From an uncultured Bacteroidota bacterium (lineage in GTDB: Bacteria > Bacteroidota > Bacteroidia > Flavobacteriales > BACL11), in the NCBI GenBank assembly GCA_902587125.1, contig CACIJW010000002.1, positions 62,001 to 126,000 on the forward strand: 64,000 nt of DNA, read 5' to 3'. A model generated the notes under the pieces. It did no database searches. It had not been told where the DNA came from and was given only the letters and a program-made list of their open reading frames with translations. Shown in pieces: positions 7,600-38,158 of the stretch (position 1 is the first letter of the stretch; each line of letters starts with the position of its first letter). Made by a program: the position numbers and the translations under genes.

Positions 7600-7636
7600 T
7601 GGGTATTGTCATAAATCAGAGCATTAAAAAGAAATT

Positions 7637-8548
7637 GTGGTTACTGTAAGTGTAATTGTTACTGTATATAATTCAGAGAGTACTGTAAAAAAAGTTATTT
7701 CTAGTATAAAAAACCAAATAGGAGTTGGAATAAATTTTAAATTAGAAATAATAGTTATTGATGATTGTTCCACCGATAAATCCTTCAGCATTTTAAAAGA
7801 CATGGGAATTATTCTTCATAAAAATAAAAGTAATTCAGGAGGTCCAAATAAAGGAAGAAATTTAGGTATGAAATTAGCTAAAGGGGAATTTATTTGTTTT
7901 TGTGATCATGATGATCTTTGGAACAATGATAAAATAATTAAGATGCTTGAGTTTAGAAATTTAGCTCCAATAATTAGCTCAGGATACATTGTTAATGATT
8001 TGCAAAGCTCAAGAGTAATTAAACGCATAAAGTATAGCTCAAAAAGCAAATATCTGAAATATGAAAAAAACATTTCATTCTTTTCGAAACTTACAAAGAG
8101 TAATAGTGGTCAAAATTTATATCTAGGAAGTCTGATGATTCACAAGGACTTAAAAAAAATAAAGTTTGAAGAGCATTTTGGGATGGTTGATTATGATTGG
8201 ATTCTTAAAATACTGCATAAAAATTCATCTATTGAGGTTTGTGAATCATTATATACAAGGAACGTTAAAAAGGATAATCTCTCTTTAGAAAGAAATTATA
8301 GAAAGAATGATTTTGAAATAACACATAAAGCTATTAAGAGTTTTTCTCAATTATATCCAAAAAAATCAATTATAGGAATAAAAAAATTACATGGGTCTTA
8401 TGCTAGATATTTTTATTTAGTTGATGATATGGTCAAGGCAAGAACACACTTTTTAAATTCGGATTTTAGTCTTAAAAATATTTTATACTTTATAACTACA
8501 TTTGCAGGATCTAAATTCGTAAAAAAGTACTTTAATGTATTTGGTTAA
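7637..8548 (+). CDS. Glycosyltransferase family 2
   Basis: The 303-residue product has the GT-A fold start (VSVIVTVYNSESTVKKVISS), the nucleotide-binding DDCSTDKS near residue 42, and the metal-binding DHDD in ICFCDHDDLW near residue 95. The start is taken as GTG at 7637 because an in-frame stop lies 12 nt upstream and no ATG occurs before the conserved first strand. It probably adds a sugar to a lipid-linked or surface glycan together with the neighbouring glycosyltransferases and sulfotransferases. Donor and acceptor unknown. Confidence 0.85.
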   Translation: MVTVSVIVTVYNSESTVKKVISSIKNQIGVGINFKLEIIVIDDCSTDKSFSILKDMGIILHKNKSNSGGPNKGRNLGMKLAKGEFICFCDHDDLWNNDKIIKMLEFRNLAPIISSGYIVNDLQSSRVIKRIKYSSKSKYLKYEKNISFFSKLTKSNSGQNLYLGSLMIHKDLKKIKFEEHFGMVDYDWILKILHKNSSIEVCESLYTRNVKKDNLSLERNYRKNDFEITHKAIKSFSQLYPKKSIIGIKKLHGSYARYFYLVDDMVKARTHFLNSDFSLKNILYFITTFAGSKFVKKYFNVFG

Positions 8549-8560
8549 AAGTAATATTAA

Positions 8561-9400
8561 ATGAAATATACCCCAATTATCATTATTGGTATGCACAGAT
8601 CAGGGACAACTATGTTATCAAAGATACTGGAAAACTCTGGTGTTTTTTTAGGTAACAATAAAGACATAAATAATGAGGCATTATTTTTTCAAAAAATCAA
8701 TACTTGGGTCATGCGTCAGGTATATGCTAGTTGGGATAACCCTGAGCCAATGCTTCATATGAATCAAAATGAACTTAATTACTTAAAAAAGATATGTTTG
8801 GGTAAAATTCAAGGCATGCAAACCTAAAGTTTTTTAGGTTTACAAAGGTTTTTAAGATCAAATAAGCTTACTGATATAAATACACGTTGGGGTTGGAAAG
8901 ACCCTCGAAATACTTTTACCCTTCCGATATGGAAGAGTATATTCCCGGATTCTAGAATTATTCACATATATAGAAACCCAGTAGATGTTGCCAATAGTCT
9001 AAAATATAGAGCTGGTAATAAAGAATTGTTTAATTCTAAAATGTCATTTAAGAATTATATTAAGATATTTCTTTTGTCAGGTAAGATTACTGCATATAGG
9101 AGCATAAAGGTACGTAATCTATATGACAGTTATTTGTTATGGTCTTCTTATGTTCGGAGAGCTTTTGAATATAATAATATCATGCATGTTAAATATGAAG
9201 AATTACTTGATAATCCAAATAAAATTTTAAATAGTTTATTTGAATATTTAGATATTGAAATTAATGAAAATATGATTTCCGACTATTCTAGTCGCTTTAA
9301 TAAGGACAGAAAATATGCTTTTCTTAAAGATGATAAATTATGTTCATTTTATGAAGATATTATAAATCAACTATTAAACATGTGTTATTTCACACTGTGA
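8561..9400 (+). pseudogene. Sulfotransferase family gene interrupted by one in-frame TAA
   Basis: Translation from the ATG at 8561 gives a sulfotransferase N-terminus (IIGMHRSGTTMLSKILENSG, the PAPS 5'-phosphosulfate loop). A TAA at 8825-8827 stops it after 88 codons. Reading past that stop in the same frame stays open to the TAA ending at 9400 and supplies the missing half: WGWKDPRNTFTLPIW and the 3'-phosphate loop IYRNPVDVANS. The total of about 279 codons fits the family. So this is a single substitution-type nonsense lesion, not a frameshift. Two separate short proteins could be made (88 aa, and an internal TTG start at 9026), but neither holds both PAPS sites. A sequencing error or a recent mutation cannot be told apart here. 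Confidence 0.85.
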
Positions 9401-9404
9401 TTTG

Positions 9405-9412
9405 TAAGTTTG
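9405..9412 (+). promoter_or_regulatory. -7 promoter box TAAGTTTG for the second sulfotransferase
   Basis: The octamer matches TANNTTTG and ends 4 nt before the ATG at 9417, just after the broken sulfotransferase. It would give the intact downstream genes their own, probably leaderless, transcript. No clear -33 element. Confidence 0.45.
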
Positions 9413-9416
9413 CAAT

Positions 9417-10028
9417 ATGAGGATTGTATTGATACATGTGCCTAAAGCAGCAGGAAACTCCATAAAAAAGGTTTACGAAAAAGATGGCTTAATTACTTGG
9501 GGTCACAACCTTAGGAAAAGCAACTATACTCGATTTCCAGATTCTAGGCTAGCAAAATTAACCAATCGGTTTTACTTTTTGTTCCAGCATTTCTATTTCA
9601 CCTTTGCAGTTATCAGAAATCCATGGGATAGAGTATTCTCAGCATACAAGTACCTGTCAAAAGGTGGTAATTGTCAAGAAGACCAAGACGATTGTAATAA
9701 ATATATAGTTGACTACAAAGACTTTAAAGACTTTGTAAAACACGGACTTTCAAATGCCAGCAAAACACAAATACACTTTATCCCTCAAACGTTCTGGTTT
9801 TGTGACAATAACAATAATGTGCTTGCTAATGAGGTTATAAAACTGGACAATTTAGAAGAGTCCATAGCACAAATCATGAAGAGGTTTAATAAAAGTCATT
9901 ACAAATTACCTGTCGTAAATAAGAGTAATAGCTTAGATTATAGGCAGTTTTATAACAAAGAGACAATCGGCATTGTGAAGGACATTTACAAACAAGAAAT
10001 CGAACTGTTTAATTTTAACTTTGAATGA
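9417..10028 (+). CDS. Sulfotransferase, Sulfotransfer_2-like
   Basis: The 203-residue product carries the 5'-PSB loop HVPKAAGNSIKK (about residues 6-17) and the 3'-PSB element FAVIRNPWDRVFSAYKYL (about residues 63-80), both typical of the PF03567-type sulfotransferases that move sulfate from PAPS to a sugar hydroxyl. It has no signal peptide, so it should act in the cytoplasm on a nucleotide- or lipid-linked glycan. It overlaps the next GT2 gene by 4 nt (ATGA), which implies translational coupling. It differs from the damaged sulfotransferase upstream, so it is not a simple duplicate. Confidence 0.8.
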   Translation: MRIVLIHVPKAAGNSIKKVYEKDGLITWGHNLRKSNYTRFPDSRLAKLTNRFYFLFQHFYFTFAVIRNPWDRVFSAYKYLSKGGNCQEDQDDCNKYIVDYKDFKDFVKHGLSNASKTQIHFIPQTFWFCDNNNNVLANEVIKLDNLEESIAQIMKRFNKSHYKLPVVNKSNSLDYRQFYNKETIGIVKDIYKQEIELFNFNFE

Positions 10029-10882
10029 TTCCTTCACCACAGTTTCCGAAAGTTTCTATCTGCATACCCACATATAACGGTGAAGAATATTTGGAAGAAA
10101 CTATTTCTTCTATCGAAAAGCAAAATTATTCAAATTTTGAGGTTGTCTTCTCTGATGATCAATCAACAGATAACACATTGAAGCTTATTCGAAGCTTTCA
10201 AAACAGGTCCAAAATAGATATCAGAGTAATCGAACATCAGCCAAACGGAATTGGGTCAAACTGGAATAACTGCGTCCATTACGCAAATGGTGAGTTTATC
10301 AAATTTTTATTTCAGGATGATTTACTTGAAGCAAACTGCATCTCTGAGATGATCAGTCATTACCAAAAAAATGAAAGGAACAATATTGGAGTCGTATATT
10401 GTAATAAAGAATTAATTGGCAAAATAAATCAGAGCCAGATTAATCTTAACCAAAGTATTTTTGATCATTACAAGAATAAAACTAACAAGGAATTACTCTC
10501 CTCTTCTAAACTTTATAAAAAACCAAGAAATAAGATTGCAGAACCACCTTGCACATTAATAAAAAAATCTGTTTTCGATGAAATAGGTTATTTTAATGAG
10601 AGCCTAAAGCAGTCTTTAGATTATGAGTTTTTGTATAGAGTAATGACCAAGTTTGCAGTTATTCCTCTTGATCAAAAACTTATAAAATTTCGTATTCACG
10701 CTGCTCAAACCTCTGCACAAAACAACAAAACAATTATAAAAGATAGTTATTTGACTCCCTTACTCTTATTAAAGAAACACTTCAGAGTTCTTAATTACAA
10801 AACAACAGCATTACTAATATATAAAGTAATTTCAGGGGCAATCCTTTTCTTTATTTTCAAACCTTTTCTGAACGAAACTTAA
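10025..10882 (+). CDS. Glycosyltransferase family 2
   Basis: The 285-residue product begins with VSICIPTYNGEEYLEETISS, then EVVFSDDQSTDNT and the metal-binding QDD in KFLFQDDLLEAN, followed by an acceptor-binding region with CTLIKKSVFDEIGYFNE and SLDYEFLYRV. A hydrophobic C-terminal segment may touch the membrane. It is coupled by ATGA to the sulfotransferase, so both probably work on the same glycan. Its stop TAA lies in a TTAA shared with the stop of the convergent flippase gene. Confidence 0.87.
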   Translation: MIPSPQFPKVSICIPTYNGEEYLEETISSIEKQNYSNFEVVFSDDQSTDNTLKLIRSFQNRSKIDIRVIEHQPNGIGSNWNNCVHYANGEFIKFLFQDDLLEANCISEMISHYQKNERNNIGVVYCNKELIGKINQSQINLNQSIFDHYKNKTNKELLSSSKLYKKPRNKIAEPPCTLIKKSVFDEIGYFNESLKQSLDYEFLYRVMTKFAVIPLDQKLIKFRIHAAQTSAQNNKTIIKDSYLTPLLLLKKHFRVLNYKTTALLIYKVISGAILFFIFKPFLNET

Positions 10883-12357
10883 AGTTTTGATTTAATCAAA
10901 TCATAACCTTTCTTGACGGTACTATTAATTTCACTTGAAACTTTAGAAACAAGTATCAGAATAGAAAACAACCCTCCAACAATAAAACTCCTTGTTATTA
11001 TATCAGTGATCAAACTTAACTCTGGTAACAAAAGTTGAGTTGTATACGACAAGAGGAAGATAGATATAACAACTAAAAACCTATAGTTAAATGGCTGAAA
11101 TCCATACTTCCTGTATATAAATAGGTATTTAACTAGATTGGTTATAAACATAGAAATGGCGGAAGCTATTGCTGCTCCTTGAATACCCCATATCGGAATA
11201 AATATGTAGTTACTTACAATCACTAGTACTATAAGCAAGGAAACAAAAATAAGCATCATACGATATTGCTTTGAAAGACTAATTACAAGATTTTTAGCTC
11301 CTGTCCCCATATCTATAAGAAAGCTTAACCCAATAAAAAATATTACCCATTTAGCTTCTAAATAATCATCACCAAGTATTTCAAGAATATTGTCAATATT
11401 AACCCATATGCCTAAAAACAAAACGCACCCAAGAATAAATTGATTTAAACAACTTTTTTTATAAATTGAGTAAATCTTTTCTAAATCATTATCCTTCCAT
11501 GCATCAGCAATAATTGTACCTGCTATTTTTAGTAAAGGTCGAGAAGGTATGACAACTAAGGTTCCAAAAAAGAATGCAATAGTATATACGCCTGTGTTAC
11601 TTAAATCCAGGAGATTAAAAATGATAATCTTATCAATACTAAACACCGCAGATGTTCCAAATCCTGCTAACAAGCTAAACATTGCAACGCTTATGATTTC
11701 TTTTCTAAGTTTTGGTGTTATGAATGAAAGATTGGGTTTTAATTTTATAGACTTTTTTCTCCACAAATGAGCAATGATCAATATTCCTTTCATTGACAAA
11801 GCCAATGCATAAGCTAGAATAAAAACATTAATGTTAATAATCTTAAAGATAAAAAGAAGTGTGAATAGCAATATCAATAATCGCTGGACAAACTCTTGCA
11901 AAAAGGTTCCATATACTGCATCATAAAGAAGCTTATTATAAGAATCAAAGAATGCATAAAGAGAAACAAATAGAGTAACAACCTTAATTAAAAAAAAATG
12001 ATCTATTAATAATACGCTATCAGCTTTTCCTTCTAAAAGATATGGACTGATAATTGAGAAAACAGCCAAAAACAGAACAAAGCCAATTAAAACAACTGAA
12101 ACACCAATAAAAAGGAACCCATTATGTCCATTAGACTCATTACGGAAATAAGGAAAAAGGCGTCCTGTAACCCCCTTGATTCCCAAAGATGATAAGTGAC
12201 TTGCAATAGTAGAGTATGCTACAATAACTCCGAACAAGCCAATAACTTCAGTACTAACATATTTTGGGAAAAGAAAAGATGTAGTAACAAAACCTAATAC
12301 CACACCTAAATAGGACCAAAAACTCCCCATTATACTTTGTTTAATAATTAAGCCCAT
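10879..12357 (-). CDS. Wzx-like polysaccharide flippase (MOP superfamily)
   Basis: The 492-residue protein has about 12 to 14 hydrophobic segments and the N-terminal pattern of polysaccharide biosynthesis flippases (GSFWSYLGVVLGFVTTSFLF). Such proteins move undecaprenyl-linked glycan units across the inner membrane. It converges on the glycosyltransferase genes and shares a 4-nt stop overlap. Its own promoter lies upstream on the minus strand, so it is transcribed apart from the glycosyltransferases but belongs to the same functional locus. Confidence 0.85.
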   Translation of the reverse strand: MGLIIKQSIMGSFWSYLGVVLGFVTTSFLFPKYVSTEVIGLFGVIVAYSTIASHLSSLGIKGVTGRLFPYFRNESNGHNGFLFIGVSVVLIGFVLFLAVFSIISPYLLEGKADSVLLIDHFFLIKVVTLFVSLYAFFDSYNKLLYDAVYGTFLQEFVQRLLILLFTLLFIFKIININVFILAYALALSMKGILIIAHLWRKKSIKLKPNLSFITPKLRKEIISVAMFSLLAGFGTSAVFSIDKIIIFNLLDLSNTGVYTIAFFFGTLVVIPSRPLLKIAGTIIADAWKDNDLEKIYSIYKKSCLNQFILGCVLFLGIWVNIDNILEILGDDYLEAKWVIFFIGLSFLIDMGTGAKNLVISLSKQYRMMLIFVSLLIVLVIVSNYIFIPIWGIQGAAIASAISMFITNLVKYLFIYRKYGFQPFNYRFLVVISIFLLSYTTQLLLPELSLITDIITRSFIVGGLFSILILVSKVSSEINSTVKKGYDLIKSKL

Positions 12358-12377
12358 TCAATTATTTTTATAGGGGG

Positions 12378-12385
12378 CAAAGTTA
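12378..12385 (-). promoter_or_regulatory. -7 promoter box TAACTTTG for the flippase gene
   Basis: Reading the minus strand gives TAACTTTG, a match to TANNTTTG, 20 nt before the flippase ATG. The rest of the 250-bp gap up to 12607 is very AT-rich; I see no gene, RNA fold or clear terminator in it. Confidence 0.5.
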
Positions 12386-12607
12386 CAAATTCTCATTATT
12401 ATTAAAGATATGACTAATAATATAAGATCTACGATTTTAAATTATCAAAAATTATTCATAAATAACATAAAAAACAATTCTTATAAAATTGATACTATTT
12501 AAGATTTTACAACATAATAGTTAAAATACTACTTTTAAGATTAAATATTTTTTTTAACAAGTATAGTCCTATTTTAGAGACAAATAATTAAATTTTATTA
12601 ACCTAAA

Positions 12608-30261: not shown

Positions 30262-31137
30262 TTAGGCAATTAGTTTTATGAACTCTTGAATGTCATAAAT
30301 AACATTGGCATTTTTGTTCAATTCTTTTCCTTTGGCTCTATCTTTAGACGTAATTAAAAATCTCTGAGCTTCTGGTTTTAAATTTTTTAAATATTCAATT
30401 GTGTAATCAATATTTGAGATAATAGGATTAGAAACTGCAAAAAATAATAGTTTGTCAACATCTACTTTTTCTACAACATGTTTAAGTGATGAGAACGGGA
30501 GGTTAGCTCCTAAGTAAATAACATTATACCCATTAAGCTTAAGTATAAGATGAGAAACGAGTAAACCAATTTCATGAAACTCGTTTTCTGGAAGGAACAA
30601 TACCCAATTATCGGTTTTGGTTATAGATTTTTGTTCTTCAATTTGCTTTGCTATTTTAGTTTTAATAAGTTCTACAAGAAAGTGTTCTTGTGATGGTGCT
30701 ATGAAATTTGTTAGCCACAGAATTCCGATTTTGTTTAGCGATTGTATAAGAACTTTTTCATAAAATTCCACAATACCAAATCTATCAATACCATTTTCAT
30801 AAGTTTTTTCAAATAATTTTTTATCAAAGTTTAGTCCTGACTCTATAGTTTTAGATATTAATAAATCATGTTGATTGACAACGTTTTCATTTTTAAGGGC
30901 ATTAACCATTGACATAATTTGGTTAATTGTCATTTTAGCAATATGGGAAATCTTGAAATTATTGTCAATTAATATCTTGGTGTTCAATGCCTTAACTATC
31001 ATATTATCATCATACAACCTGAGATTTGTTTCTGTACGACTGGGAACAATAAAACCATATCTGTTCTCCCAAGTTCTTAACAAAATTTTGTTGAGGCCGG
31101 TTATTTTAGAAAATTGATCTATACTGTAGGTTGACAT
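30262..31137 (-). CDS. carH: CarH-like MerR-family regulator with cobalamin-binding photosensor domain
   Basis: The 291-residue protein has a MerR winged helix (residues 4-45, TYSIDQFSKITG and RTWENRYG), a helical bundle with W141 and E151-H152 in the exact W-x9-EH pattern of CarH photoreceptors, and a Rossmann B12 domain with E186-x-H188-x2-G191 (the ExHxxG cobalamin ligand motif). In characterised CarH proteins adenosylcobalamin holds a DNA-bound tetramer in the dark and light breaks it, releasing carotenoid genes. Here residue 142 after the Trp is Leu, where Thermus CarH has the His that caps cobalt in the light state. It is divergent from crtI across a spacer rich in TATACAA half-sites, so control of crt and of itself is likely. 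Confidence 0.85.
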   Translation of the reverse strand: MSTYSIDQFSKITGLNKILLRTWENRYGFIVPSRTETNLRLYDDNMIVKALNTKILIDNNFKISHIAKMTINQIMSMVNALKNENVVNQHDLLISKTIESGLNFDKKLFEKTYENGIDRFGIVEFYEKVLIQSLNKIGILWLTNFIAPSQEHFLVELIKTKIAKQIEEQKSITKTDNWVLFLPENEFHEIGLLVSHLILKLNGYNVIYLGANLPFSSLKHVVEKVDVDKLLFFAVSNPIISNIDYTIEYLKNLKPEAQRFLITSKDRAKGKELNKNANVIYDIQEFIKLIA

Positions 31138-31294: not shown

Positions 31295-32764
31295 ATGAAA
31301 AAAATTACTGTAATTGGTAGTGGGTTCTCAGGACTCAGTTGTGCAGCATATTTAGCAAAGAACGGATGTGATGTTACAGTAATAGAAAAAAATGATAATT
31401 GTGGTGGTAGAGCTAGACAATTTACTCACAATGGTTTTAAGTTTGATATGGGGCCTAGTTGGTTTTGGATGAAAGATGTCTTTGATAAATTTTTTAATGA
31501 TTTTAACAAAAAATCAACTGATTTTTTTGAAACTATAAAATTAGATCCTGGTTTTCAAATAATTTTTAAGGACAATCTTTTAAAATTGCCATCAAATTGG
31601 GAAGACATACTAGATCTTTTTGAATCATATGAAAAGGGTAGTTCAGTAAATTTGAAAAAATTTATGATTGAAGCTGAGGCTAAGTACGATATTGGTATTA
31701 ATACGCTAGTACAAAAGCCAGGATTATCAATTTTTGAACTATTAGATTTAAAAGTCATTAAGAATCTTTCCAAACTAAAGCTTTTTACTTCTTACAGAAG
31801 TCTTGTATATAAAAGTTTTAAAAATAAATATTTAAGATCACTGCTTGAATTTCCAGTATTATTTTTAGGTACTGCACCTAAAGATACTCCTTCTATTTAT
31901 AGCTTGATGGCTTATTCAGGAATTAAAGAAGGAACATTTTACACTATGGGAGGATTTGTTTCAGTTATTAATGCAATGAAAACTATTTGTGATGATTTAG
32001 GCGTAAAATTTAAATTTAATTTTGATGTTGAAAATGTTGAAATAAAAAATAATAAAATAGTGTCTGTCAGCTCTAGTAATAGTAAACTTAGTACTGAAAC
32101 TGTAATTTGTAGTGCTGACTACAATTTTTTTGAGCAAAAAATATTACCAAAAAAATATCAGTCTTATACTAATCGTTATTGGCAAAGTAGAACAATGTCA
32201 CCTTCTAGTTTACTTTTCTACTTGGGAGTTTCTAAGAAAATTAAAAATTTAGAACATCATAATCTTTTCTTTGATGAGGACATTGAGGAGCATATTGACG
32301 ATATCTACAAGAAACCAATATGGCCTAAAAAACCGCTTTTCTATGTTTGTTGTCCGTCAAAAACCGATATTGAAGTTGCTCCAATAGACAAAGAAAACAT
32401 CTTTATTTTGATACCTATTGCCCCTGGAATTGAGGATACGAGCGGTATAAGAAAGAAATATTATGATATTGTATTAGATAGATTAAGTAAATATTGTCAA
32501 ATTGATTTAAAACAAATCATTGAATATGATAGGAGTTATTGTATTAATGATTTTATATCTGATTATAATGCATTTAAGGGAAACGCATATGGCCTTGCTA
32601 ATACTTTGACACAAACTGCTAATCTCAAACCAAAAATTAAAAGCAAAAAATTAAATAATTTGTTTTACACTGGGCAGCTGACAGTTCCTGGTCCTGGAGT
32701 ACCCCCTTCACTGATTTCAGGTAAAGTTGTTGCTAATTATATCTTAAATAAAGAACCATGTTAA
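31295..32764 (+). CDS. crtI: Phytoene desaturase (phytoene to lycopene)
   Basis: The 489-residue FAD enzyme opens with the dinucleotide fold VIGSGFSGLSCAAYLAKNG and EKNDNCGGRARQF, has the family segment MGPSWFWM near residue 50, and ends with TGQLTVPGPGVPPSLISGK, the carotenoid desaturase C-terminal signature. It introduces double bases into phytoene to give lycopene in the membrane. It overlaps crtB by 7 nt and leads the light-regulated operon. Length is typical. Confidence 0.95.
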   Translation: MKKITVIGSGFSGLSCAAYLAKNGCDVTVIEKNDNCGGRARQFTHNGFKFDMGPSWFWMKDVFDKFFNDFNKKSTDFFETIKLDPGFQIIFKDNLLKLPSNWEDILDLFESYEKGSSVNLKKFMIEAEAKYDIGINTLVQKPGLSIFELLDLKVIKNLSKLKLFTSYRSLVYKSFKNKYLRSLLEFPVLFLGTAPKDTPSIYSLMAYSGIKEGTFYTMGGFVSVINAMKTICDDLGVKFKFNFDVENVEIKNNKIVSVSSSNSKLSTETVICSADYNFFEQKILPKKYQSYTNRYWQSRTMSPSSLLFYLGVSKKIKNLEHHNLFFDEDIEEHIDDIYKKPIWPKKPLFYVCCPSKTDIEVAPIDKENIFILIPIAPGIEDTSGIRKKYYDIVLDRLSKYCQIDLKQIIEYDRSYCINDFISDYNAFKGNAYGLANTLTQTANLKPKIKSKKLNNLFYTGQLTVPGPGVPPSLISGKVVANYILNKEPC

Positions 32765-33594
32765 AAATATTTAATCAAATTTCAAAATCAACATCAGAGC
32801 TTACTACAAAATCATACAGCACAAGCTTCAGCTTTGGTATAAAAGCTTTAAGTAAAAGTATACAACAGCCGATATATAACATTTATGGTTTTGTAAGATT
32901 TGCTGATGAGATTGTTGATACATTTCATAATTTCAATAAACAAGAGTTATTAAAAAAGTTTAAAAAAGACACATTTCACTCTATTGAAAGCGGAATAAGC
33001 TTAAATCCAATACTAAATAGTTTTCAAGCTGTAGTTAACAAATATAATATAGATCATAAGCTCATAAATTTATTTTTTAATAGTATGTTCATGGACTTAA
33101 ATTCAAGCGTTCATGATGACGACTCATACAAAAAATATATACTTGGATCCGCTGAAGTAGTAGGATTAATGTGTCTTAAGGTTTTTGTGGATGGCGACGA
33201 GAAAAAATATAATAAGCTTAAACCACATGCAATGAGTCTTGGATCAGCTTTTCAAAAAGTTAACTTTTTAAGAGACATTAACGATGACTTTGTTAAACTT
33301 GGAAGAACTTATTTTCCAGGTGTTGATATGAACAATTTTACTGAATTTGATAAAATGGTAATTGAGGATGATATAATCAAAGACTTTGAAAATGCTTTAA
33401 TTGGTATTAAACAACTTCCATCATGTTCTAAAGGAGGTGTATACTTAGCTTACATTTATTATTACAAACTTTTTAAAAAAATTAAAACTGTTCCTTACTA
33501 CGAAATATTTAATAGAAGAATAAGGGTTCAAAACTCAAACAAAATTCTTTTAATGTTTCAATCTGTTGTTAAGAACCAATTTAATTTGATATGA
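32758..33594 (+). CDS. crtB: Phytoene synthase
   Basis: The 278-residue enzyme condenses two geranylgeranyl diphosphates to phytoene. It has both aspartate-rich sites: FADEIVD near residue 48 (DxxxD) and NFLRDINDDF near residue 171, which bind magnesium and diphosphate, along with RTYFPG. It overlaps crtI by 7 nt and the next gene by 4 nt (ATGA), so the operon is translationally coupled. Confidence 0.95.
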   Translation: MLKIFNQISKSTSELTTKSYSTSFSFGIKALSKSIQQPIYNIYGFVRFADEIVDTFHNFNKQELLKKFKKDTFHSIESGISLNPILNSFQAVVNKYNIDHKLINLFFNSMFMDLNSSVHDDDSYKKYILGSAEVVGLMCLKVFVDGDEKKYNKLKPHAMSLGSAFQKVNFLRDINDDFVKLGRTYFPGVDMNNFTEFDKMVIEDDIIKDFENALIGIKQLPSCSKGGVYLAYIYYYKLFKKIKTVPYYEIFNRRIRVQNSNKILLMFQSVVKNQFNLI

Positions 33595-34067
33595 AGTTTA
33601 TTTTTCTATCGATTTTTTTAATCATTTCCAAGAATATTTTTTCATCTCAAATTGATGATATCAGAAAGTTGTATGTGCAATCATCAAACTCACTAGAGAA
33701 TGCGTTCAAATTACAGAAAATAACTAATGATTTAGTTTTTAGTGATAATGCTTTTAACAAGCACTCAGAAAAGATTTTCAAAAACCCCAATATTAGTGGA
33801 TACTTAGCGTCTTCATTTTTTTTAATTGCTAAAAATTCAAAAAATATATTTTTAAAATTTAAAAACTTTGAAATTGGGAAGTTTATTCTTGAAAAGTTAA
33901 TCCACAAATTTCCAAATAATTTAGAGCTCATAATTCTTAGAAATAATATTCAAACAAATTGTCCAAAAGCTTTAAATTATGACGATTGCTTAGTAGAGGA
34001 TATTTTTTTCATAGAAAAAAATATTCATCTTTTTGATAATTTAAAAATGCTTACCAATGTTCGGTGA
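33591..34067 (+). CDS. Small exported protein of flavobacterial crt operons, unknown function
   Basis: The 158-residue product has a signal peptide (MKFIFLSIFLIISKNIFSSQ) and a helical body with IDDIRKLYVQSSNSLENA, GYLASSFFLIAKN and KFPNNLELIILRNNIQTNCP. The helical pattern, with paired leucines and N-P-N turns, resembles the small proteins encoded between crtB and crtZ in other flavobacteria, as I recall them. Function unknown; a role in carotenoid handling at the membrane or periplasm is only contextual inference. Confidence 0.75.
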   Translation: MKFIFLSIFLIISKNIFSSQIDDIRKLYVQSSNSLENAFKLQKITNDLVFSDNAFNKHSEKIFKNPNISGYLASSFFLIAKNSKNIFLKFKNFEIGKFILEKLIHKFPNNLELIILRNNIQTNCPKALNYDDCLVEDIFFIEKNIHLFDNLKMLTNVR

Positions 34068-34132: not shown

Positions 34133-34240
34133 ATGAGCATTGAAGATTTAGAAATAGAAATTAATAAAATTCCTCAAAATTATAATCATTGGTTCAAGTT
34201 GTGCGTTCCAAAGATTAGTAAATTTGTAAAAAAAATATAA
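34133..34240 (+). CDS. 35-residue open frame just before crtZ
   Basis: The frame runs MSIEDLEIEINKIPQNYNHW and on to a basic end (KISKFVKKI), and its TAA overlaps the crtZ ATG (TAATG), a common coupling arrangement. A near-consensus box TAAGTTTC lies about 20 nt upstream. The acidic-then-basic composition looks like a real peptide, but such short frames occur by chance in AT-rich DNA, and there is no recognised family. Confidence 0.4.
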   Translation: MSIEDLEIEINKIPQNYNHWFKLCVPKISKFVKKI

Positions 34241-34687
34241 TGATTGGCATACTGTTTAATATTCTGATTACTGTCCTTGTTTTTATCTTTATGGAATTTT
34301 TTGCTTGGTTCGCTCATAAATATATTATGCATGGTTTTTTATGGTCGTTACATAAGGATCATCACCAAGTCAATCATGATCATAAGTTTCAAAAAAATGA
34401 TTATTTCTTTTTAATTTTTGCTATTCCTTCAATCATTCTTTTTGTATTAGGTTCCAAGGATTTTAACTATATGTTTTTTTCTGGCCTTGGTATTGCATTA
34501 TATGGGCTGGCATATTTCATAGTTCATGAAATAATAATACATAGAAGATTGCCCCCCCCCTAGTAAAACTAAAAGCAAGTATATCAAAGCAATTAGAAAG
34601 GCTCACAAAATTCATCATAAAAATAGGAATAAAGATCATTGCGTTAATTTTGGAATGTTGATTGTTCCATTTAAATACTTTAAATAA
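34240..34687 (+). pseudogene. crtZ: Beta-carotene hydroxylase CrtZ, frameshifted at a C9 run
   Basis: The first 107 residues match CrtZ (fatty acid hydroxylase superfamily): membrane helices and the histidine boxes HKYIMH, HKDHH and HEIIIHRR. At 34552-34560 nine Cs end in a TAG. Reading from 34562 in the +1 frame continues as SKTKSKYIKAIRKAHKIHHK to FGMLIVPFKYFK and TAA at 34687, which restores the last box HKIHH needed for the di-iron site. With eight Cs the gene would be one 148-codon frame. As written the product lacks one iron-binding box and should be inactive. Either a sequence error, phase variation, recoding or a true mutation. Confidence 0.88.
34552..34560 (+). repeat. C9 homopolymer in crtZ
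   Basis: Nine consecutive Cs in a very AT-rich genome, exactly at the point where the reading frame of crtZ breaks. The last codon before the stop is CCC, followed by TAG T. Confidence 0.95.
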
Positions 34688-34694
34688 TATTTAC

Positions 34695-35156
34695 ATGGCT
34701 GCATTTCAATTCAAAAGAGAACAAATAATTAATAGTGATATTGATACCATTTGGGATTTTGTTTCATCACCTAAAAACTTGAAGGAAATCACACCGGATT
34801 ACATGCTTTTCCAAATAACTTCAGATAATATAGATCAAAAAATGTATCCAGGTATGATTATAACTTACAAAGTAGCTCCAATCCTAAACATAAAAATTGA
34901 TTGGATGACTGAAATAACTCATGTCCGAGATAAAAAGTTTTTTATTGATGAACAAAGAATGGGACCATATAAAATGTGGCATCATCAACATATTTTTGAA
35001 ATCAAAGATAATGGAGTGTTGATGAAAGATATCATAACTTATATTCCTCCACTAGCTCTAATAGGTCAGATTGCAAATAAGATATTTATCAAAAAACAGT
35101 TGAAAAATATTTTTGATTACAGGCAAAAAGTAATAAACAAAAAATTTAATCAGTAG
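34695..35156 (+). CDS. SRPBCC-family (START-like) protein
   Basis: The ATG at 34695 gives 153 residues starting AAFQFKREQIINSDIDTIW. The pattern DTIWDFVSSPKNLKEITPDYM, then PGMIITYKVAPILNIKIDWM-type strands (landmarks SSPKNLKEITP and NIKIDWMTEI) and QRMGPYKMWHHQH, marks the polyketide-cyclase-like SRPBCC fold that binds hydrophobic ligands. It is 8 nt after the crtZ frame and cotranscribed. Related proteins are often paired with TIGR01777 epimerases, one of which is in this island. Confidence 0.82.
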   Translation: MAAFQFKREQIINSDIDTIWDFVSSPKNLKEITPDYMLFQITSDNIDQKMYPGMIITYKVAPILNIKIDWMTEITHVRDKKFFIDEQRMGPYKMWHHQHIFEIKDNGVLMKDIITYIPPLALIGQIANKIFIKKQLKNIFDYRQKVINKKFNQ

Positions 35157-36435
35157 CTAGAGAGCTTTTATATGTTTGTAAGCACCGTTTTCTAGCAAAT
35201 TTATGTTCAACAATCCTTTTGATGTAGTTAGAAGAATCAAAATCATTAATCCATTTTTTCACATACTCATATTTTGAATCAAACTTTATCTGCTGAGTTT
35301 CAGGATTAAAAACTCTGAAGTATGGAGCACTATCACATCCGGTTCCAGCTACCCATTGCCAATTTCCATTATTTGATGACAGATCGAAATCTAATAATTT
35401 TTCTGCAAAATATCTTTCTCCCAATCTCCAATCAATTAGAAGATGTTTAACTAAGAAGCTAGCAGTTATCATTCGAACTCTATTATGCATATATCCTGTA
35501 GAGTTTAATTGATTCATTCCAGCATCTACAATTGGATATCCTGTTTTTCCACTACACCACATTTGGTATTCATTATTATTATCCCTCCATTTTATTTTTG
35601 AATATTTTGCTTTGAAAGGTTGATTAACAACATGTGGAAAGTTATATAGTATTTGACTGTAAAATTCTCTCCAAATTAGCTCACTGAGGAAAATTTTATT
35701 TTTACTAAATGCGTATTTCACACACTCTCTTATCGAAACAGATCCAAATCTTAAATGTGGGCTTAGAAAAGATGTTTTATTTTCTGATGGAAAGTCTCTG
35801 AACTTTTCATAATCTTTTATGAAATCAAAGTTTGGATTAATTACTTTGATAGATGATTTTTTAAAACCAAAGTCTTCAAGATTTATTGTCTTTTCCTTTA
35901 TTTGATAGAGATTTTTTATTTTTTTTTCTGAATCGTAGAACTTGAGATCTTCACTATTAATTGAGCTTATCCATTTATTCTTGTATGGAGTGTATACTGT
36001 ATATGGGTTTCCATCATCTTTTGATATTTCATTCTTTTCAAAAATTAAATGATCTTTATATGATGATGTTTTTATATTGTTTTTAGTTAAGAGATCAATT
36101 ATTTGTTGGTCTCTTTTAATAGCATACGGTTCATAATCTCTGTTAAAAAAAACATTTGAGATTTCATACTCAGAAATTAGTTCTTTCCAAATATCAACGG
36201 GATTACCGTATTTACAAAGCACATTACTTTTGAATTTCTCTATTTTTTTATTGATATTATTAATGAGCGAACTAATGAATGTTACTCTTGGGTCATCTTT
36301 TTTGAGATTTCTTAGTATTGAGTCATCATATATGAATAAAAGTAACGTCTTTCCGCTACTTAAACTATTGTAAAGTCCAATATTATCTCTAAGCCTTAAA
36401 TCTCTTCTAAACCAAAATACATTTATCTTATCCAT
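35146..36435 (-). CDS. phr: Deoxyribodipyrimidine photolyase (class I CPD type)
   Basis: The 429-residue product has the N-terminal antenna-binding domain (VFWFRRDLRLRDNIGLYNSL) and the C-terminal FAD domain with LIWREFYSQIL, MHNRVRMITASFLVKHLL, and NWQWVAGTGCDSAPYFRVFNP (landmarks GNWQWVAGTG and APYFRVFNP). The Trp electron-transfer chain residues appear present, so it should repair UV-induced pyrimidine dimers using blue light. A cryptochrome cannot be excluded from sequence alone. It ends the operon that begins at 37753 and overlaps the convergent SRPBCC gene by 11 nt. Confidence 0.92.
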   Translation of the reverse strand: MDKINVFWFRRDLRLRDNIGLYNSLSSGKTLLLFIYDDSILRNLKKDDPRVTFISSLINNINKKIEKFKSNVLCKYGNPVDIWKELISEYEISNVFFNRDYEPYAIKRDQQIIDLLTKNNIKTSSYKDHLIFEKNEISKDDGNPYTVYTPYKNKWISSINSEDLKFYDSEKKIKNLYQIKEKTINLEDFGFKKSSIKVINPNFDFIKDYEKFRDFPSENKTSFLSPHLRFGSVSIRECVKYAFSKNKIFLSELIWREFYSQILYNFPHVVNQPFKAKYSKIKWRDNNNEYQMWCSGKTGYPIVDAGMNQLNSTGYMHNRVRMITASFLVKHLLIDWRLGERYFAEKLLDFDLSSNNGNWQWVAGTGCDSAPYFRVFNPETQQIKFDSKYEYVKKWINDFDSSNYIKRIVEHKFARKRCLQTYKSSLATD

Positions 36436-37793: not shown

Positions 37794-37801
37794 AAAAAAA
37801 G
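37794..37801 (-). terminator. T-run terminator after tmRNA
   Basis: Seven consecutive T on the minus strand follow directly after the tmRNA acceptor and T-arm helices, which can act as the hairpin of an intrinsic terminator. Confidence 0.5.
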
Positions 37802-38158
37802 TGGAGCTGGTGGGATTTGAACCCACGTCCAAACAAGCAATTTAAAAGGGTTCTACATGCTTATCATTACTTTTATTTCAAATTATTAAGGTTGTAATGA
37901 AAACCAAACAAATAATTCAATTCTCTAATTCTCATTAAAATAGCGAGAAATTATTTTAACTATCCTAACAAATATGATGCCTCAAAGTAAACCGTTAGGA
38001 AAATTTACAAGAGACAAAAGCTAATTAATTATTAATTAAGCAGCTAAAGCGTAATTATTTTCGCCAATTAAAAAAGTTGTAATTATGTTTAACGAGAAAA
38101 TTACAAGCTCGACATGCTAGCTAAAAAATTATTCTTGTTGTCAAAACCTGTCAGCCCC
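37802..38158 (-). ncRNA. ssrA: tmRNA
   Basis: Reading the minus strand, the 5' end is GGGGCTGACAGG and the 3' end is the T-arm GTGGGTTCAAATCCCAC followed by CAGCTCCA, which closes the alanine-type acceptor stem with the 5' GGGGCTG. The tag frame (38065 to 38036) reads GENNYALAA and TAA, the Flavobacteria form of the degradation tag. The RNA rescues stalled ribosomes together with SmpB. The CCA tail is not encoded (bases after the discriminator are CTT), so it must be added by CCA transferase. Predicted mature length 357 nt. Confidence 0.96.

Follow-up and report, generated by a model that had tools for sequence, protein, structure and literature searches.

The DNA analysed here (the window, 64 kb in length) contains a carotenoid cluster, in which the genes for a phytoene desaturase, a phytoene synthase and a CrtZ-type hydroxylase lie on the same strand, and the hydroxylase gene is interrupted at a run of nine Cs. 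The features of the locus are:

30262..31137, minus strand, MerR plus B12-binding regulator, CarH-like, divergent from crtI (PF13411, PF02607)
31295..32764, plus strand, crtI-type phytoene desaturase, intact (NCBIfam NF058655, 677 bits, over the cut-off)
32758..33594, plus strand, crtB-type phytoene synthase, intact (PF00494)
34240..34563, plus strand, 5′ part of crtZ, an open reading frame of 107 amino acids with the first histidine motifs, whose stop is the TAG after the tract
34552..34560, plus strand, C9 homopolymer, read as codons CCC CCC CCC and followed by TAG
34559..34687, plus strand, 3′ part of crtZ in the +1 frame, 42 codons and a stop, including HKIHH
34695..35156, plus strand, small intact gene 3′ of crtZ, with at most a weak polyketide-cyclase/START-like match
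35146..36435, minus strand, DNA photolyase, convergent with the crt cluster (PF03441, PF00875)

The CarH-like regulator scores below the cut-off of the CarH profile itself (NF052513). There are two sister species, i.e., members of the same genus in which the locus is present: G003 (MAG SP47) and G004 (AH-716-K08). The sister orthologue of the small gene 3′ of crtZ matches PF03364 below the cut-off (E = 0.03). Between crtB and crtZ lie two further open reading frames. The first (33591–34067) has no match in Pfam or NCBIfam and its protein evolves fast, as 30 of the 52 changes relative to one sister and 17 of the 27 relative to the other are nonsynonymous. The second (34133–34240) encodes 35 amino acids (MSIEDLEIEINKIPQNYNHWFKLCVPKISKFVKKI), is conserved in both sisters, and has a stop codon that overlaps the start of crtZ (TAATG).

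Elsewhere in the window, the region 7631–12394 carries genes of the sulfotransferase, glycosyltransferase and polysaccharide-flippase types, is mostly unaligned to the sisters, and appears to be a variable surface-polysaccharide island. Within this region lie two adjacent open reading frames, 8561–8827 and 9026–9400, which correspond to opposite ends of sulfotransferase profiles and could be fragments of a single broken gene. A tmRNA gene with the tag GENNYALAA is located at 37801–38158 on the minus strand.

The reading frame across the C tract is CAT AGA AGA TTG CCC CCC CCC TAG TAA. Thus, the frame of crtZ is broken exactly where the nine Cs lie, with TAG directly after them, as the sequence-only reading had stated. 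The same reading had held that the product ends at residue 107 without the histidine box HKIHH, and that eight Cs would give the full-length enzyme. Both statements are borne out: the codons for HKIHH are intact one frame over, the region 34559–34687 is open in that frame (PSKTKSKYIKAIRKAHKIHHKNRNKDHCVNFGMLIVPFKYFK, followed by a stop), and the version with eight Cs encodes 148 amino acids. The extent of the CrtZ proteins of the sisters is the same as that of this restored protein, apart from one additional N-terminal methionine.

The first 107 residues of CrtZ are 94–95% identical to the intact CrtZ of the sister species. The sister orthologues score above the cut-off of PF04116 (fatty acid hydroxylase superfamily), and the 107-residue fragment from the window matched no profile in a Pfam search. 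Across 89 relatives (sister numbering), the near-invariant histidines include H26, H31, H38, H41, H42, H96 and H101 on the N-terminal side of the tract, and H122, H125 and H126 on its C-terminal side; the latter three are outside the open reading frame as assembled. The assembled CrtZ is therefore missing part of the conserved metal-binding set and, from established knowledge of the superfamily, the product of the C9 version would be expected to have lost its activity. A search of the organism's own genome with crtZ as query revealed no second copy, i.e., no second hydroxylase that would make crtZ dispensable.

Comparison with the sister species revealed how the tract differs. In both sisters, the run is interrupted by an A (CCCCCACCC or CCCCCACCT), giving CCCCC-A-CC(C/T): G003 reads TTG CCC CCA CCT AGT, G004 reads TTG CCC CCA CCC AGT, crtZ is intact in each, and both encode the same Leu-Pro-Pro-Pro-Ser that the window would encode. 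Among 60 relatives searched, crtZ is intact in all 36 that have a match, and there is no stop in any match to crtZ itself. The uninterrupted C run is absent from both sisters, and is shorter or absent in all other relatives read; a C8 intermediate was not seen in any relative, and none has a CCC-stop in crtZ. A search of viral contigs for DNA of the same species gave two matches, both to an unrelated gene.

Over approximately 38–51 kb, the DNA of the window is 93–94% identical to that of both sisters. The C9 in crtZ is the only window-specific one-base indel inside a gene relative to both sisters in this alignment; the remaining window-specific one-base indels are all outside genes. In the 3′ part of crtZ, there are five window-specific differences relative to the two sisters, each of them synonymous. 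Because of this, the break in crtZ is either recent or not real, which agrees with the view of the sequence-only reading that it does not reflect old decay.

The C9 is the sole C/G run of at least 7 in the window, and was seen in none of 100 dinucleotide shuffles of it. The genome (1.54 Mb) has 12 C/G runs of at least 7, just one of which is a C9. The other 11 comprise ten that lie inside one open frame and one that lies outside any long frame. No frame is disrupted at the three other C8 runs of the assembly, which lie in ftsZ, an M20 peptidase gene and mnmE, nor at its C7 runs within genes or at the A/T runs of the window, so the rate of homopolymer errors in this assembly is low. In other genomes of the family, C9 and C10 runs are present at other loci.

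A pattern search for C/G runs of at least 8 in 52 genomes of the family was used as a survey, and about 95 runs were read and classified (L280, where a gene seemed to be broken, lies at a junction of genes and was classed as intact). A gene is broken by nine of these runs: crtZ in the window, lipA in G004, a gene for a PBP1a-like protein in G001, and six genes in G029 (AG-426-M23; L268, L269, L270, L304, L305 and L307, five with a shift of +1). In G029, six of eight C/G runs of at least 8 break a gene, versus none of 18 A/T runs. In the assemblies titled as MAGs (G003, G005, G010, G021 and G022), none of about 25 C/G runs is broken. Comparing these with G029 and G004 together, which can be taken as single-cell genomes from their isolate names, gives a Fisher p of about 7e-6, a value that is pseudo-replicated, as six breaks come from one genome.

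In G004, lipA is broken by a G9 run (L181:1499–1507, C23); the alignment shows a length change, and lipA is intact in the three other members of the genus where it was found. This case resembles crtZ: a substitution removed the interrupting base, after which the run became longer by one base. In G001, a G8 run (L183:1452–1459, C8) breaks the gene for the PBP1a-like protein exactly at the GGASTITQQLAK motif; this motif, which runs on in the next frame, is what identified the gene. Loss of LipA or PBP1a should be harmful, which makes error the better explanation of these breaks. Neither gene is a plausible target of a pigment-like switch. Breaks in such unrelated, essential-type genes fit errors in amplification, sequencing or assembly, or slippage at random, better than they fit a switch under selection.

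Taken together, the comparisons favour a change in length by one base at an accidental C8, an isolated event that is probably technical in origin (probability roughly 0.55), over a maintained switch. By parsimony, a synonymous A-to-C change (CCA to CCC) in the conserved Pro-Pro-Pro stretch would have built an uninterrupted C8, at which one further C would then have been gained, most likely in amplification, sequencing or assembly. Spurious homopolymer indels are known in Illumina data (PMC8808543). A technical origin is supported by the intact crtZ of the sisters, by the 3′ part with synonymous differences only, and by the intact crtI and crtB; counted against it is that the assembly of the window is otherwise clean at long runs. 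If, as is probable, the added C is technical, then CrtZ is probably still full length in the living population, and carotenoid still hydroxylated.

That otherwise clean assembly would suit a second explanation, in which natural slippage at the accidental C8 had recently added one base (+1) in the sequenced cell or strain. C/G runs of at least 8 are known to be mutable in Campylobacter (PMC6321876), and the 3′ part of crtZ shows no decay, as expected if the slip was recent. The cell would then have a CrtZ without its last histidine box, which is probably inactive, and its β-carotene would remain unhydroxylated: a transient loss rather than a selected switch. However, as crtZ is the single copy in the genome and is intact in all matched relatives, its loss should be selected against, and the similar breaks elsewhere fall in genes that are unlikely to be dispensable. 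A sporadic mutation is thus possible but unlikely.

Phase variation, the central proposal of the sequence-only reading, fares less well. Slipped-strand mispairing would reversibly toggle crtZ (on with C8, off with C9), giving mixed populations with hydroxylated and non-hydroxylated carotenoids. The tract is rightly placed for this: at C9 it reaches the length of contingency tracts (C/G runs of at least 7–8; in Campylobacter, where contingency loci have poly-C/G tracts, the cut-off is at least 7 G/C, PMC6321876), and one base is enough to toggle expression between the frames of crtZ. Against this, comparison of the locus in related genomes, by which that reading had proposed to check its claim, gave relatives with an intact crtZ and without the uninterrupted tract, both among the sisters and among all others read. 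Furthermore, the 12 C/G runs of at least 7 in the genome do not form a set of on/off loci, as no second broken C/G tract was found; the breaks in other genomes strike unrelated, essential-type genes; and crtZ encodes a biosynthetic enzyme, rather than being a typical surface or restriction-modification contingency gene. In the literature collection searched, no paper combined the terms phase variation, carotenoid and homopolymer. The tract could work as a contingency tract, judging from its length and position, but cannot be filed as one, and phase variation of crtZ is improbable.

A switch at crtZ would nevertheless have an effect. The genome carries a CrtYcd-type lycopene cyclase and a rhodopsin that adjoins a Blh-type oxygenase (G000 C2:10022–11655; L204, L210), so that β-carotene is expected to be converted both to retinal and, via CrtZ, to zeaxanthin. 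Hydroxylated carotenoids, among them zeaxanthin, can serve as antennae for some rhodopsins that have a fenestration glycine (PMC12308411, PMC13093654). By motif alignment, the rhodopsin has WG where bacteriorhodopsin has WW, with glycine at the fenestration position. The TM6 positions are P and G, not the polar residues of Kin4B8 and KR1, and antenna binding is therefore uncertain despite the fenestration glycine. The antenna context raises the stakes if crtZ switches; it is no evidence of switching. It is very unlikely that, in this rhodopsin-bearing marine flavobacterium, a poly-C contingency tract has newly arisen and toggles carotenoid hydroxylation (between β-carotene and zeaxanthin), thereby possibly changing the antenna of the proteorhodopsin. 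If crtZ truly switched, a free-living marine bacterium would have a pigment enzyme that phase-varies via a poly-C tract, and bet-hedging would be linked to light use.

A further possibility, quite improbable, is that the C9 is real but leaky, with some full-length CrtZ being made via +1 ribosomal frameshifting or RNA polymerase slippage. The shift would occur at CCC_UAG, where the tRNA-Pro in the P-site would slip from CCC to CCU, or the polymerase would slip on the C9 itself. The frame needed is indeed +1, a stop comes directly after the CCC, and constraint on the 3′ part persists. Provided that the additional C is real, CCC-UAG could plausibly act as a +1 ribosomal shift site, by analogy with CCC_UGA, which is a natural +1 shift site in tsh of Listeria phage PSA and shifts at 15% in pheL of E. 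coli K-12 (PMC5009743). Here, though, the stop is UAG and not UGA, no stimulatory RNA structure was found around CCC_UAG (z = 0.47), and the arrangement is absent from all relatives, whereas a programmed +1 frameshift would be expected to have a shift site that relatives share. A recent origin or an artefact would account equally well for the lack of decay.

Three other candidates were rejected. Old pseudogene decay is contradicted by the lack of any window-specific nonsynonymous change in the 3′ part, together with the intact crtI and crtB. A generally poor assembly with many frameshifts is contradicted by there being no other coding one-base indel relative to both sisters, and by the window A/T runs of at least 8 being in frame (the three that were flagged are gene junctions). 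A conserved contingency tract is contradicted by the runs of at least 8 in relatives, which mostly sit in other genes and are in frame.

Thus, an isolated and probably technical gain of one base at an accidental C8 remains the preferred explanation. In assemblies of this group, genes are sometimes broken by one base at long C/G runs, and such breaks are dense in one assembly with a single-cell-style name. Since such breaks recur, a break in a single genome should not be called a pseudogene or a phase-variable gene without reads.

The locus can be compared with four known systems. As in the CrtZ-type carotenoid hydroxylases of Bacteroidota (PF04116), the gene has histidine motifs and a neighbourhood of crtI and crtB; the copy in the window, as assembled, differs in being without the last histidine box. 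PSA tsh and E. coli pheL (PMC5009743) likewise have a proline CCC directly before a stop, with the protein continuing in the +1 frame, but crtZ has UAG in place of UGA, no stimulator was found, and no relatives share the arrangement. The poly-C/G loci of Campylobacter (PMC6321876) have in common with crtZ a C/G run that is long enough to be unstable, within a gene of an AT-rich genome, where one base switches the frame; in contrast, the tract in the window is not conserved even among sister species, is the sole C9 in its genome, and lies in a gene for a pigment enzyme rather than a surface or restriction function. From the homopolymer length errors of sequencing and assembly (reviewed in PMC8808543), the present case differs in that the other long runs of the window are correct; it resembles them in the one-base indel at a long run, in a gene that is constrained and otherwise undamaged, and in the breaks in unrelated genes of related assemblies.
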